This document shows positions 3,820 to 9,604 of a stretch of DNA of 39,195 bases, in pieces. Below the pieces are notes generated by a model, which saw nothing but the letters and a program-made list of their open reading frames with translations, made no database searches and was not told where the DNA came from. The position numbers and the translations under genes were made by a program. Numbering within the stretch: position 1 is the stretch's first letter; each line of letters starts with the position of its first letter. Source of the stretch: Nitrospirae bacterium JdFR-81. GTDB taxonomy: Bacteria > Nitrospirota > Thermodesulfovibrionia > UBA6902. The stretch is from assembly GCA_002011735.1 (NCBI GenBank), contig MTOQ01000073.1, positions 1 to 39,195 on the forward strand, read 5' to 3'.

Positions 3820-4806
3820 TCAGGTATAGAGCCTGATGGCCCTTACCACCTCATCTATGGTCTCAGAGGCAACCCTCCTTGCCCTTTCAGCGCCTGAGCT
3901 GATCACCTCCCTCAGCACCTCAGGCCTCTCCTTGAGGCTGTTTCTCTTCTGCCAAATGGGCTCAAGCACCCTGAAGATGTTCTTGATCAGGACCTTTTTA
4001 CAATCTATACAACCTATCCTGGCAGTGCGGCACCCCTCGGCCACCTCATCCTGCTCTGCCTTTGAGGAGAATATCTTATGCAGCTGAAAGACCGGTGACT
4101 TCTCAGGCTCCCCTGGGTCTGTCCTCCTTATCCTCTGCGGATCGGTGGTCATGGTCCTTATCTTCTGTTCAACCACCTCAGGGGGATCTGAGAGGTAGAT
4201 ACAGTTATTATAGCTCTTGCTCATCTTACGGCCATCAAGCCCTGTAACCTTTGGAAACTCCGTAAGAAGGGCCTCTGGTTCAGGAAAGACCCTGCCATAA
4301 AAATTATTAAACCTCCTGCATATCTCCCTCGTCAGTTCAAGGTGAGAGACCTGATCGATCCCCACAGGCACATAGTTGGCCTTATAGATCAGTATATCCG
4401 CTGACTGTAGTAACGGGTACCCAAGGAATCCATAGGTGTTGAGATCCTTGTCCTTCATCTCAAACTGCTTCTCCTTGTATGTGGGGACCCTCTCGAGCCA
4501 GCCAAGGGGTGTAATCATCGAGAGCAGGACATGCAGAACCGCATGTTCTGGCACGTGGGACTGTATAAATATGGTTGACCTCTCTGGATCAAGCCCTGCA
4601 GACAGCCAGTTCATGATCAGGTCTTCCACATAATCCCTTATCATGGATGTATCCGCATACTGGGATGTAAGGGCATGCCAGTCTGCAACAAAATAATAAC
4701 ATTCGTACTCATCCTGCAGTCTCACCCAGTTCTGGAGCGCACCAACGAGATTACCTATATGCAACCGTCCACTCGGCTGCATTCCGCTTAAGACCCTCTT
4801 CTTCAT
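3820..4806 (-). CDS. trpS: Tryptophanyl-tRNA synthetase
   Basis: SGMQPSGRLHIGNLVGAL (HIGH-type) and DGRKMSKSYNN (KMSKS). Confidence 0.97.
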   Translation of the reverse strand: MKKRVLSGMQPSGRLHIGNLVGALQNWVRLQDEYECYYFVADWHALTSQYADTSMIRDYVEDLIMNWLSAGLDPERSTIFIQSHVPEHAVLHVLLSMITPLGWLERVPTYKEKQFEMKDKDLNTYGFLGYPLLQSADILIYKANYVPVGIDQVSHLELTREICRRFNNFYGRVFPEPEALLTEFPKVTGLDGRKMSKSYNNCIYLSDPPEVVEQKIRTMTTDPQRIRRTDPGEPEKSPVFQLHKIFSSKAEQDEVAEGCRTARIGCIDCKKVLIKNIFRVLEPIWQKRNSLKERPEVLREVISSGAERARRVASETIDEVVRAIRLYT

Positions 4807-4842
4807 ACCCTATCTCCTTAAAGCCATCGTGGGATTTGATTA

Positions 4843-5514
4843 TTACAATAGTCGCAACAACGCAAGAAACAGATTCACAAGGGGAATGACAAAATACTGC
4901 GCTATCCCTGTCACTATCAGCACTATCACTATGATAAAACCGAATGGTTCTATCCTGCTGAATGATATCGCCTGCTTATAAGGCAGAAGCCCTACAAGCA
5001 CCCTCCCACCATCAAGTGGTGGTATCGGTATAAGATTGAATGATGCAAGGACGACATTAATTATAATACTCGATGTAAACATCAACATCAATGGCTTTAA
5101 TATCCTTGCGGTCACAACAGCAGGTGAGACCGCAGAGAGGGGTGCAATCAAGAATTTGATTATCAGGAGGCTCAGTACAGCAAGTAGTATGTTCATTAAA
5201 GGTCCTGCAGCAGCAGAGATGGCCATATCCCTCCGCGGGTCCCTGAAATTCTGAGGATTTATGGGGACAGGCTTTGCATAGCCAAAGACAAACTGTCCAT
5301 TTGTAAAGATGAATAACATCAGGGGCATCAGTATGGTGCCAACAGGGTCTATATGGACAAAGGGGTTGAGCGTGAGTCTGCCGACAAACTTGGCGGTGGG
5401 ATCACCGAGCCTGTTTGCAACAAACCCGTGGGCAACCTCATGAAAGGTGATGGCAATGAGTATGGGGAGGATGGATATAATTATCTGCCTTATCATCACG
5501 CCTGAAGGATCCAT
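4843..5514 (-). CDS. Site-2 protease family (M50) membrane metalloprotease
   Basis: HEVAHG (HExxH) in a TM segment, NLIPIPPLDGGRVL motif. Confidence 0.93.
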   Translation of the reverse strand: MDPSGVMIRQIIISILPILIAITFHEVAHGFVANRLGDPTAKFVGRLTLNPFVHIDPVGTILMPLMLFIFTNGQFVFGYAKPVPINPQNFRDPRRDMAISAAAGPLMNILLAVLSLLIIKFLIAPLSAVSPAVVTARILKPLMLMFTSSIIINVVLASFNLIPIPPLDGGRVLVGLLPYKQAISFSRIEPFGFIIVIVLIVTGIAQYFVIPLVNLFLALLRLL

Positions 5515-5648: not shown

Positions 5649-5695
5649 TCTATCAATATAGTTGAGGGAAGAACCTATCCTGAGTGGAGGTAGAT

Positions 5696-7486
5696 ATGGA
5701 GATACCAATAAAAAACAAAAGGCTTGCAGGATGGATCAGGGAGGTTGCAGAGCTGTGCACCCCTGAGGACATCTATGTGTGTAATGGTTCAAGGCAGGAG
5801 TATGAGAGACTGATGAGGATGATGGTTGACAGCAGGATGGCCATACCGCTCAAGAAGAGGCCCAATAGCTTTCTGTTCCGGTCAGATCCGAGTGATGTTG
5901 CAAGGGTCGAGGATCGCACATATATCAGCACCCCTTCCAGGGAAGATGCCGGACCAACAAACAACTGGATAGAGCCTGACAGGCTCAAGAAGACGATGCT
6001 GACACTATACAGGGGATGTATGAAGGGCAGAACCATGTATGTGATACCCTTCTCGATGGGACCCATCGGCTCTCCGATGTCGAAGATCGGTGTTGAGATA
6101 TCAGACAGCCCGTATGTCGTTGTCAACATGCATATTATGACCCGTGTGGGTAACAGGGTTATCGAGGCCCTTGGTGAGGATGGCGATTTTGTCCCCTGCC
6201 TGCACTCGATCGGTGCGCCATTATCAGAGGGGCAGAAGGACTCCCTGTGGCCATGTGCACCCATGGAGAAGAAATACATAAGTCACTTTCCTGAGGAGAA
6301 CCTGATATGGTCTTATGGCTCAGGCTATGGAGGGAATGCACTGCTTGGGAAGAAATGCATGGGCCTCCGCATCGCCTCTGCCATGGCGAGGCGTGAGGGA
6401 TGGATGGCAGAGCACATGCTCATACTGAGGCTTATAAGCCCTGAGGGCAGGAGATACCATATCGCTGCTGCCTTCCCATCTGCATGCGGAAAGACCAACC
6501 TTGCGATGATTCAGCCGTCAATACCGGGATGGAGGGCAGAATGTATAGGGGATGATATCGCCTGGATGAGGATCGGTGATGATGGTCGTCTCTATGCCAT
6601 TAACCCTGAGAGTGGATTCTTCGGGGTTGCTCCTGGGACATCGTATGAGACAAACTCGGTGGCCATGGAGACGCTCAGGGAGAATGTAATCTTCACCAAC
6701 TGTGCACTCACTGACGATGGTGATGTCTGGTGGGAGGGGATGACCGATGATGTCCCGTCCCATGCAATAGACTGGAGGGGTAACGACTGGACACCTGAGA
6801 GCCCAGGAGACGCAGCACACCCGAATGCAAGGTTCACCGCGCCTGTATCCCAGTGTCCTATAATCTCCAGTGATTGGGACAACCCTGATGGTGTGCCTAT
6901 AGACATATTCATCTTCGGTGGCAGGAGGAGCACCGTTGTGCCGCTTGTGTATGAGGCATTCAACTGGGATCATGGTGTCTTTATGGGTGCCACTGCGTCG
7001 TCAGAGACGACCGCTGCAAATATCGGTGCGATCGGCAACCTGAGATACGACCCGTTCGCCATGAAGCCATTCTGTGGCTATAACATGGCCGATTACTTTA
7101 AGCACTGGCTCGATATGGGTGACAGACTCAGGGACAAGGCACCAAGGATATTTTATGTAAACTGGTTCAGAAAGGACGGAGATGGCAGGTTCCTCTGGCC
7201 TGGCTTTCGTGAAAACAGCCGGGTGCTCAAGTGGATGTGCGAACGGATAGACGGTAAGGTGGATGCTGTAAAGACCCCTATCGGCCTCCTGCCGAGGATG
7301 GAGGACCTGGATCTAAAAGGCCTGGACATACCACCTGAGGACATGAGGGAACTGTTGAGTGTGGATATCTCGCAGTGGAAGGCCGAGATACCCAACATAG
7401 AGCACCACTTCAAGACGTTCGGGGCAAGGCTGCCTGATAGGCTCTGGAGACAGCTTGAGGAGTTCAAGGGGCGCCTTGGCGGCTAA
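5696..7486 (+). CDS. pckG: Phosphoenolpyruvate carboxykinase (GTP)
   Basis: [12 protein letters not shown] (P-loop with catalytic Cys), [17 protein letters not shown]...FLWPGF. GGAGG at 5686-5690 favours ATG 5696 over GTG 5684. Confidence 0.97.
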
Positions 7487-7523
7487 AGAGATTAATCCCT
7501 CCGTGCTGATGTAAAATATTAGT

Positions 7524-9284
7524 ATGATAAAAGCCGAGGCGCAAAAGTCAGTCGGTGTCCACAGAAAGACCCTGCTCAATGTCCTGGGTGTTGTCTATAT
7601 CCATCATAAAACGAGTGATGGAGGTGATATCTATCTCACAAGGTTTGCAGAGAGATACAGCAGACACCTCGAGATAGAGAACTGGTATGAGAAGGAGTGG
7701 TTCAATAAGAACAGGGTGAGGCTTGCAGGGACAGGCTCTGTATACAGGGTGCCCACAAAGGAGGTCGATGGGAAGGTGCTCAACCTCGTCATCAAGAACT
7801 CCAGGGTTGGTGAGGATGTGCCTGTTGACACCCACACCCTCCAGGAATTCTGTGACGCAGAGTTCAACAGTCCATGGGAGGAGTTCTCACTGGTTATGGA
7901 ACTGAGGGAGAGCATGTATGGTCCAAGGGATCTGAGGATAAACACGCAACTTCCGATGGCCATCTATGTCCCGCCCGAGAGGATGCAGATATGGCAGAGT
8001 GGCAGGTCAAAGGCAAAGATCAACAGGATAAGGGCAAAGCACCCAGGCATAGACCTTGATATACTGAAACAGTATAAGCTCATCTATAAGTGGATAGATG
8101 GGAAGGATCTGCTCCAGTTATTTAAACATATAGATATCGAAGAGGACAAAAGGCTTGAGCACCTCAGGATACTTGACAGGATGGTTATGGAGCATCTCAT
8201 GAAGAAGGGTTACCTCGTGGCTGACATGAAGCCAGAGCATATCATAATAAACGAGGAGGATTCAAAGAGGGTCGAGGAGCTTGGCAATTCAGGCCCAGGA
8301 AAACAGATAGAATACCTGTATGAACTCATCCATGCAGGGAGATACTCTGTGGTGGACTATGAATTGATGCTCAGGACACCAGAACACGAGGCCGAGGTCA
8401 AGAACTCAAGGAGACACTCCTATCTCGACGACCAGAGGGACAGGTTCATCCCCACGCCACTGCCACCCCATCTGTCCAGTATGGAGATAATGGGTGTCCC
8501 TTACATCTATGGCCATGCCGAGAGCACAGGAGGCCGCCTGTGGGTGGTTGGAAGGAACGCCCGATTATTCGATTACTTCCTTCCCGAGAGGTGGAGGAAG
8601 ACACCAAATATAAGACTCTCCAACAGGAAAGAGGTTTATTACACTGTAACAAAGGATAACATCCACCTCGTATGGAAGACATCAAGGGTGGGGGAGATAC
8701 CCGAAAAAGAGGAGGAGAGGTATCACCCAGGTCTTGGAGAGGCAGGAATAAACAGTCCGTTTGAGGAGTTTGCAATCGCCCATGAACTGACCAGGCTCGG
8801 CATCCCGTGTGTATATGTGAGGGCCATTTATATGACTGGAAGTCCGAAGATAGAGCCCTCTGTAGACCTGAGGAAGTATAAATCCCACAAGGATATACTT
8901 GACCCCGAGGGCAACCCTGTGCTCAGGGAGGACCACAATTATATAATGATCCAGGGATACTATAACGGGCCTGATGAGTGGGTTGCAAGACAGAAGGGCC
9001 CGCTGTATAGACCTGTTGATCTCGAGAGGGCTGTAACCGAGGGCCTGATAGACAGGGCACTCTGTATCAGGCTCCTTGCAGACACAAAGAAGAGGCTTGA
9101 GGATGTGGGATATGATGGCTCATTATTGAAACCCGATGACCTGCTCATTACTGTGGACAATCGTGGTGAGATAGTGATGGATGAATCAGGCAGGCCACTT
9201 GTGGTAATCTGTAACTTTGAGGTTATACTGAAACGCCCTCTCAATAGCCACCGTAGCTCAACAGGTAGAGCAGGGCATTCGTAA
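7524..9284 (+). CDS. Uncharacterised protein with two tandem diverged kinase-like units
   Basis: 586-aa ORF. Unit 1: LVIKNSRVGE, SPWEEFSLVMEL, GYLVADMKPEHIIIN, VVDYELML. Unit 2: LVWKTSRVGE, SPFEEFAIAHEL, GYDGSLLKPDDLLIT, VICNFEVIL. The last 12-13 codons lie inside a tRNA gene. Confidence 0.8.
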   Translation: MIKAEAQKSVGVHRKTLLNVLGVVYIHHKTSDGGDIYLTRFAERYSRHLEIENWYEKEWFNKNRVRLAGTGSVYRVPTKEVDGKVLNLVIKNSRVGEDVPVDTHTLQEFCDAEFNSPWEEFSLVMELRESMYGPRDLRINTQLPMAIYVPPERMQIWQSGRSKAKINRIRAKHPGIDLDILKQYKLIYKWIDGKDLLQLFKHIDIEEDKRLEHLRILDRMVMEHLMKKGYLVADMKPEHIIINEEDSKRVEELGNSGPGKQIEYLYELIHAGRYSVVDYELMLRTPEHEAEVKNSRRHSYLDDQRDRFIPTPLPPHLSSMEIMGVPYIYGHAESTGGRLWVVGRNARLFDYFLPERWRKTPNIRLSNRKEVYYTVTKDNIHLVWKTSRVGEIPEKEEERYHPGLGEAGINSPFEEFAIAHELTRLGIPCVYVRAIYMTGSPKIEPSVDLRKYKSHKDILDPEGNPVLREDHNYIMIQGYYNGPDEWVARQKGPLYRPVDLERAVTEGLIDRALCIRLLADTKKRLEDVGYDGSLLKPDDLLITVDNRGEIVMDESGRPLVVICNFEVILKRPLNSHRSSTGRAGHS

Positions 9285-9319
9285 TGCTCAGGTTAGGGGT
9301 TCGAGTCCCCTCGGTGGCT
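9247..9319 (+). tRNA. tRNA-Thr (anticodon CGT)
   Basis: Full cloverleaf: acceptor GCCACCG/CGGTGGC, D stem GCTC/GAGC, anticodon stem GGGCA/TGCTC with loop TTCGTAA, T arm AGGGG-TTCGAGT-CCCCT; discriminator T, CCA not encoded. Confidence 0.95.
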
Positions 9320-9331
9320 CTTCCTATCAAC

Positions 9332-9604
9332 TCACTTTGACCCGACGGCCTCCTTCTTCCTGTCATCCTGCTTCTTTGTGCCCTCTGTGGCCTTCTTTGC
9401 CTCTTCCATCGCCTTCTTTCTCTCAGGAGATGGATAGTCTGTCACATACCAGCCACTGCCCTTGAGCACAAAAGATGTGTTGGTTATCAGCCTCTTCAAT
9501 TCTCCCCCGCAATGTTCACATGTGGAAAGGGGATCGTCCGTTATCTTCTGTGTGACCTCGAACTGGTCATTACAACTTGTGCATTTGTATTCATAAATCG
9601 GCAT
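9332..9604 (-). CDS. FmdB-family zinc-ribbon regulatory protein
   Basis: [17 protein letters not shown]...[12 protein letters not shown]. Confidence 0.93.

Follow-up and report, generated by a model that had tools for sequence, protein, structure and literature searches.

The window analysed here, 39,195 nucleotides in full, is contig MTOQ01000073.1 of Nitrospirae bacterium JdFR-81 (genome G000 in our sample). It carries a gene for GTP-dependent phosphoenolpyruvate (PEP) carboxykinase, pckG, followed on the same strand by a frame encoding a protein of two related halves, hereafter copy 1 and copy 2. The features at this locus are as follows.

3820-5514, - strand: trpS and an M50 site-2-protease-like gene, beside pckG
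5684-7486, + strand: pckG, GTP-dependent PEP carboxykinase (Pfam PF00821, E 4.4e-173), same strand as the kinase-like gene
7524-9284, + strand: tandem kinase/pseudokinase-like protein, open frame with ATG start, 586 aa (P0001)
7566-8438, + strand: copy 1, kinase-like half, residues 15-305 (AlphaFold2 model, Foldseek, invariant catalytic residues)
7728-7745, + strand: glycine-rich-loop-like GTGSVY, residues 69-74 (alignments; G69 invariant)
7794-7796, + strand: K91, candidate beta-3 Lys (invariant in 50/50 relatives; within model strand 87-92)
7878-7883, + strand: E119-E120 in NSPWEEF, candidate alpha-C Glu (invariant in 50/50; model helix 117-129)
8223-8240, + strand: D234-M-K-P-E-H239, candidate catalytic loop (D, K and H invariant; profile alignments)
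8355-8363, + strand: D278-Y-E280, DFG-position motif (D and E invariant; D278 on the ABC1 DFG Asp)
8475-9233, + strand: copy 2, pseudokinase-like half, residues 318-570 (similarity to copy 1; both Asp positions lost in 50/50)
8763-8768, + strand: E414-E415 in NSPFEEF, retained alpha-C Glu pair of copy 2 (alignment of relatives)
9123-9140, + strand: LLKPDD, residues 534-539, copy-2 catalytic-loop position (Asp lost; 16/50 relatives have His at residue 539)
9213-9215, + strand: N564, copy-2 DFG Asp position (alignment of relatives)

The pckG stop codon (7484-7486) is separated from the start of the kinase-like frame by exactly 37 bp, the distance given in the initial annotation, and every motif quoted there for the 586-aa frame was found in the translation. 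Across 26 aligned orthologs, identity to the window protein is 53-73% over the full length. Such orthologs occur in many Nitrospirota genomes (apparently Thermodesulfovibrionia) as well as in genomes of Fibrobacteres, Latescibacterota, Lentisphaerae and Syntrophaceae, and more divergent full-length members, with about 33-47% identity over copy 1, were retrieved from the phyla of the Syntrophaceae, Fibrobacteres and Lentisphaerae genomes. One Fibrobacter-named genome (L067) carries two full-length tandem genes head to tail (5971-7716 and 7845-9563), followed by a pfkB-like gene.

The protein had been described as repeating itself, and this is borne out by two sequence comparisons. Profiles of the two halves match each other with an hhalign E-value of 1.1e-9 over 208 columns, and the Smith-Waterman score between the halves of the window protein alone is 103, against a mean of 35 for shuffled sequences (sd 5.4, maximum 59 in 1000). 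These scores indicate homology between the halves. The repeat extends beyond what was first listed, as a small strand-rich N-terminal mini-domain precedes each kinase-like half (LGVVYIHHKTSDGGD / MGVPYIYGHAESTGG). Two single-domain relatives, both adjoining argJ, are encoded at L188:4913-5848 (- strand, 311 aa) and L183:5018-5974 (- strand, 319 aa); they keep nearly all of the catalytic residue set of copy 1 and possibly resemble the state before duplication.

In copy 1, G69, K91, E119, E120, D234, K236, H239, D278 and E280 are invariant in all 50 full-length relatives aligned, which come from several phyla. The motifs follow one another as in a kinase: a GT[GS]xVY glycine-rich loop, the beta-3 Lys, the alpha-C Glu, a DxKPxH loop and D[YFH]E. 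In profile comparisons D234 aligns with the HRD Asp of Hanks-type kinases, and H239 with their metal-binding Asn, which copy 1 thus replaces by His. A D-x-K-P catalytic loop is the form found in Ser/Thr protein kinases. Copy 1 therefore has, in order and in 50/50 relatives, the Lys, the Glu, the catalytic-loop Asp and the DFG-position Asp required of the superfamily, including the two Asp residues that it had been said to keep, and this conservation is good evidence for a putative kinase active site.

Copy 2 presents the opposite picture at both Asp positions, as had been claimed. The counterpart of D234 (L534) is never Asp among the 50 relatives, and the counterpart of D278 (N564) is Asn in 46 of them and Asp in none. 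The alpha-C Glu pair, on the other hand, is kept (E414 in 50/50, E415 in 49/50). The initial annotation had proposed a candidate beta-3 Lys in both copies; this holds for K91 of copy 1, but the copy-2 position is not conserved, with Lys in 28, Glu in 17 and other residues in 5 of the 50. Judged from its residues, copy 2 fits the definition of a pseudokinase, a kinase-derived domain without catalytic residues, and the pattern of loss is the one expected if a kinase half was duplicated and one of the copies then degenerated. The earlier reading of an active-type kinase fused to a pseudokinase is thus supported by the conservation pattern over 50 relatives.

Structure prediction by AlphaFold2 gave a mediocre model for the full-length protein (pLDDT 72.6); copy 1 was therefore refolded alone with 52 diverse sequences, yielding a pLDDT of 88.5 and a pTM of 0.86. 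When this model was compared with the PDB using Foldseek, the best 50 matches were all protein kinases, with E-values from 7.7e-5 and a probability of 1.00 for nearly all of them. Viral protein kinases head the list obtained from a viral fold library. Among the best 50 PDB matches, however, TM-scores against solved kinases are only 0.25-0.33, with an rmsd of about 7-10 Å. Because the TM-scores are near 0.3, we describe the predicted fold as remote and trimmed. The structure prediction that had been recommended as a check thus supports a protein-kinase-like, though remote, fold for copy 1; as the superposition over the whole domain is weak, a bilobal kinase fold proper is less certain.

No Pfam or NCBIfam family reaches its cut-off for the window protein, and Pfam matches are weak across all members, in agreement with the earlier statement that no named family was recognized. 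The best Pfam name is ABC1 (ABC1/UbiB, PF03109; E 0.0055), at 11.6-13.4 bits, below the gathering cut-off of 22.9 bits. The gathering cut-off of Pkinase (PF00069) is likewise not reached, 3 of 52 members giving weak matches (best E 0.025). Some members match Bud32 (2e-5) or PrkT (7e-4) weakly, and a weak match to Rad53 (E 0.02) places D on D, K on K and H on N. Profile-profile comparison of the family with Nitrospirota Ser/Thr kinases gave an E-value of 1e-4 with the catalytic residues in register, and comparison with ABC1 proteins 0.0085 with both Asp residues in register; in the positive control, Ser/Thr kinases against ABC1, it was 2e-10, while five unrelated E. coli proteins used as negative controls for profile alignment all remained above 0.1. 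With the family profile alone, a true Hanks kinase of genome G070 is also picked up (E 1.7e-6); it was rejected as a member (Pkinase 3.6e-51 at the same place).

Hanks-type Ser/Thr kinases are the best profile and structure matches of the tandem protein and share with it the Gly-rich loop, Lys, alpha-C Glu, D-x-K-P and DFG-position Asp in the same order. They differ in that the canonical HRDxKxxN and DFG motifs were not found in the family: its DxKPxH lacks the preceding His-Arg, its metal-site residue is His instead of Asn, and D[YFH]E stands in place of DFG. The copy 1 model, moreover, has only a short helical region after the DFG position. ABC1/UbiB/COQ8 atypical kinases resemble the family in the placement of both Asp residues, but membership was rejected, as the family is below the Pfam cut-off and weaker against ABC1 than against Ser/Thr kinases; the window genome has a genuine UbiB-type gene of its own. 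WaaP/WaaY lipopolysaccharide (LPS) heptose kinases share a kinase-like fold, and the His located five residues after the catalytic Asp of WaaP (HRDCYICH) had raised the suspicion of WaaP membership, which was rejected: WaaP does not align (hhalign E 0.34), no LPS-kinase family appeared among the Pfam results, and these enzymes are single-domain, lack a D-x-K-P loop and are encoded in LPS operons. WaaY gives an hhalign E-value of 3e-4 against the family. A defence function was likewise rejected, since PADLOC PD-T4-6 matches over the catalytic-loop region are weak (E 0.015 or worse) and the linkage to pckG does not fit defence. We conclude that the proteins constitute a new family of the protein-kinase-like superfamily. 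A scan of the whole window-genome assembly with Pfam Pkinase at E 0.001 gave no match, so that this genome may be without any canonical Hanks kinase.

The strongest result of the analysis is the genomic tie to pckG, whose adjacency had been marked for a conservation check and proved to be conserved. In a sample of 296 Nitrospirota genomes, with pckG scored by PF00821, the kinase-like gene is present in 39 and pckG in 47, and all 39 carriers have pckG (Fisher p 4e-41; p-values here ignore shared ancestry); a fortieth weak match, the G070 Hanks kinase, was left out of these carriers. Both genes lie on the same contig in 37 of the 39, always with pckG upstream and on the same strand, and in 27 pairs the matched regions are within 250 bp of each other. 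Eight Nitrospirota genomes have pckG without the kinase-like gene. Two genomes lacking the kinase-like gene, G008 and G312, carry a pckG closely similar to that of the carriers and offer a useful natural comparison. In the phylum of a Syntrophaceae genome, pckG is present in 7/7 carriers versus 108/297 genomes overall (p 7e-4). Over five phyla together, 72 of 73 carrier genomes have pckG, a count that omits two weak matches (G675 and G915) and includes the two single-domain and some partial carriers; the sole exception, G689, may be an incomplete genome. The gene thus both accompanies pckG in the genome and lies next to it, as proposed for a regulator of this enzyme.

Gene order is not uniform. 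The kinase-like gene precedes pckG at one locus (L171), is divergent from it at another (L179) and adjoins a divergent pckG subtype at a third (L180). The genome containing the last of these, G715, carries a pair of PEP carboxykinase genes that differ in subtype, and the divergent one is the neighbour of the kinase-like gene. The occurrence of several gene orders and both pckG subtypes shows that the association is not one frozen operon. In genome G987 (L190), only pieces of the kinase-like gene adjoin pckG: a copy-2-like open reading frame, together with fragments spread over other frames. They may represent a gene that has decayed or been frameshifted. Among members located away from pckG, neighbouring genes encode malate dehydrogenase (L127), methylmalonyl-CoA mutase and a glyoxalase-family protein that is a probable epimerase (L128), phosphofructokinase (L174), a GlgC-like nucleotidyl transferase (L132) and PfkB (L173), and so keep to a theme of C4-acid and sugar metabolism. 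Near the clustered Nitrospirota loci, trpS and the M50 peptidase gene are found at 27 and 31 loci, respectively, in varying orientation, but this linkage was not seen in the loci examined from other phyla. On this ground pckG is taken to be the primary partner.

Taken as a whole, the linkage argues strongly for PckG as the partner of the tandem protein. Gene linkage shows partnership, not phosphorylation, and it points to PckG as the substrate of copy 1 indirectly. When PckG sequences from genomes with and without the kinase-like gene were aligned, no Ser, Thr or Tyr proved to be conserved in carriers alone, and therefore no phosphosite is proposed.

PEP carboxykinase controls entry into gluconeogenesis. 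Inheritance of the kinase-like gene together with pckG across several phyla suggests that its product is probably a dedicated on-site regulator of the enzyme. pckG and the tandem gene would be expressed as one unit, probably by co-transcription. As a functional protein-kinase-like domain, copy 1 would bind ATP and most likely phosphorylate PckG, or PckG and itself, and such phosphorylation may tune flux between oxaloacetate and PEP in one direction or the other. Copy 2 would probably sense a metabolite or nucleotide, or clamp copy 1 to PckG, and could thereby control copy 1 activity as an internal regulatory or docking domain. We regard this combination, a dedicated PckG regulator with copy 1 as a kinase most likely acting on PckG and copy 2 as its regulatory pseudokinase, as evenly balanced between true and false. 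The broader proposal, that in several phyla this family serves bacterial GTP-dependent PEP carboxykinase as its dedicated converter kinase and exerts covalent on/off control comparable to that of AceK, is put forward tentatively, at slightly under even chances.

Two known systems offer functional parallels. AceK, the isocitrate dehydrogenase kinase/phosphatase, controls flux at a branch point, and like the tandem protein it is encoded beside the metabolic genes it serves (the aceBAK operon) and is of nearly equal length (578 versus 586 aa). Homology to AceK, suspected from this length and the operon logic, was rejected, as no sequence relationship was detected with the E. coli protein (hhalign E 0.38); to our knowledge AceK has no internal duplication. 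The PPDK/PEP synthase regulatory protein (DUF299) is a bifunctional Ser/Thr kinase that serves a single PEP-forming enzyme and is often encoded beside its target. It is a P-loop type enzyme without the protein-kinase fold and, on this description, is set apart from the tandem protein as a functional analogue only.

The same linkage would also fit a non-catalytic partner that binds PckG and acts as a scaffold or allosteric switch, responding to ATP bound by copy 1 or to a ligand bound by copy 2, with no phosphate transferred. A pseudokinase making up half of the protein and the His at the metal-binding Asn position are compatible with such a role; all copy 1 catalytic positions, including the loop Asp and Lys and the DFG Asp, are nevertheless invariant across phyla, whereas a catalytic Asp is often missing from pure ATP sensors, and we consider this reading unlikely, though worth keeping in mind. 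Rather unlikely, too, is a kinase of the same superfamily that acts on small molecules, as sugar, choline and LPS-core kinases do, with a gluconeogenic or sugar metabolite as its substrate. It would account for the remote similarity to WaaY and ABC1 besides Ser/Thr kinases, for the His shared with WaaP and for the carbohydrate genes neighbouring the family in several genomes, but the D-x-K-P loop is of the protein kinase form, linkage is to a single enzyme gene, pckG, rather than to a pathway missing a kinase step, and a pseudokinase half is typical of regulators.

A kinase-fold enzyme performing other chemistry on PckG, for instance AMPylation or glutamylation in the manner of SelO or SidJ, is improbable. 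The non-canonical metal-site residue would suit it, and a published account of SidJ shows that a kinase fold can take on altered chemistry (PMC6858067); no specific SelO or SidJ family signature was found, however, and the catalytic-loop Asp is present. That the protein is not a kinase at all, but an unrelated fold with chance kinase-like motifs, is very improbable: low TM-scores and sub-threshold Pfam matches would be expected in that case, yet the invariant residues occur in the right order and spacing, profile-profile comparison puts D234 on the catalytic Asp of two kinase families, the five unrelated control proteins fail to align, and the best 50 Foldseek matches in the PDB are all kinases. 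Regulation of PckG by a kinase-pseudokinase pair remains the preferred reading.

A literature search retrieved no dedicated bacterial PEP carboxykinase kinase, an absence that is only suggestive given its thin coverage of subscription journals. According to a 2023 review mainly concerned with plant PEP carboxykinase, no kinase has been unequivocally shown to be responsible even there (PMC10441589). A 2025 review on bacterial Ser/Thr pseudokinase families contains no mention of tandem or fused forms, nor of the terms Nitrospir-, carboxykinase or gluconeogen- (PMC12599244).

The near-constant presence of pckG in carriers, combined with a conserved kinase-like active site, makes the question of a PEP carboxykinase kinase directly testable with two proteins. 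The family also provides a bacterial example of putative intramolecular kinase-pseudokinase pairing, and single-domain relatives that may reflect the form preceding duplication. If the proposed role is true, it would place the oxaloacetate-PEP step under covalent on/off control, comparable to the control of isocitrate dehydrogenase by AceK.
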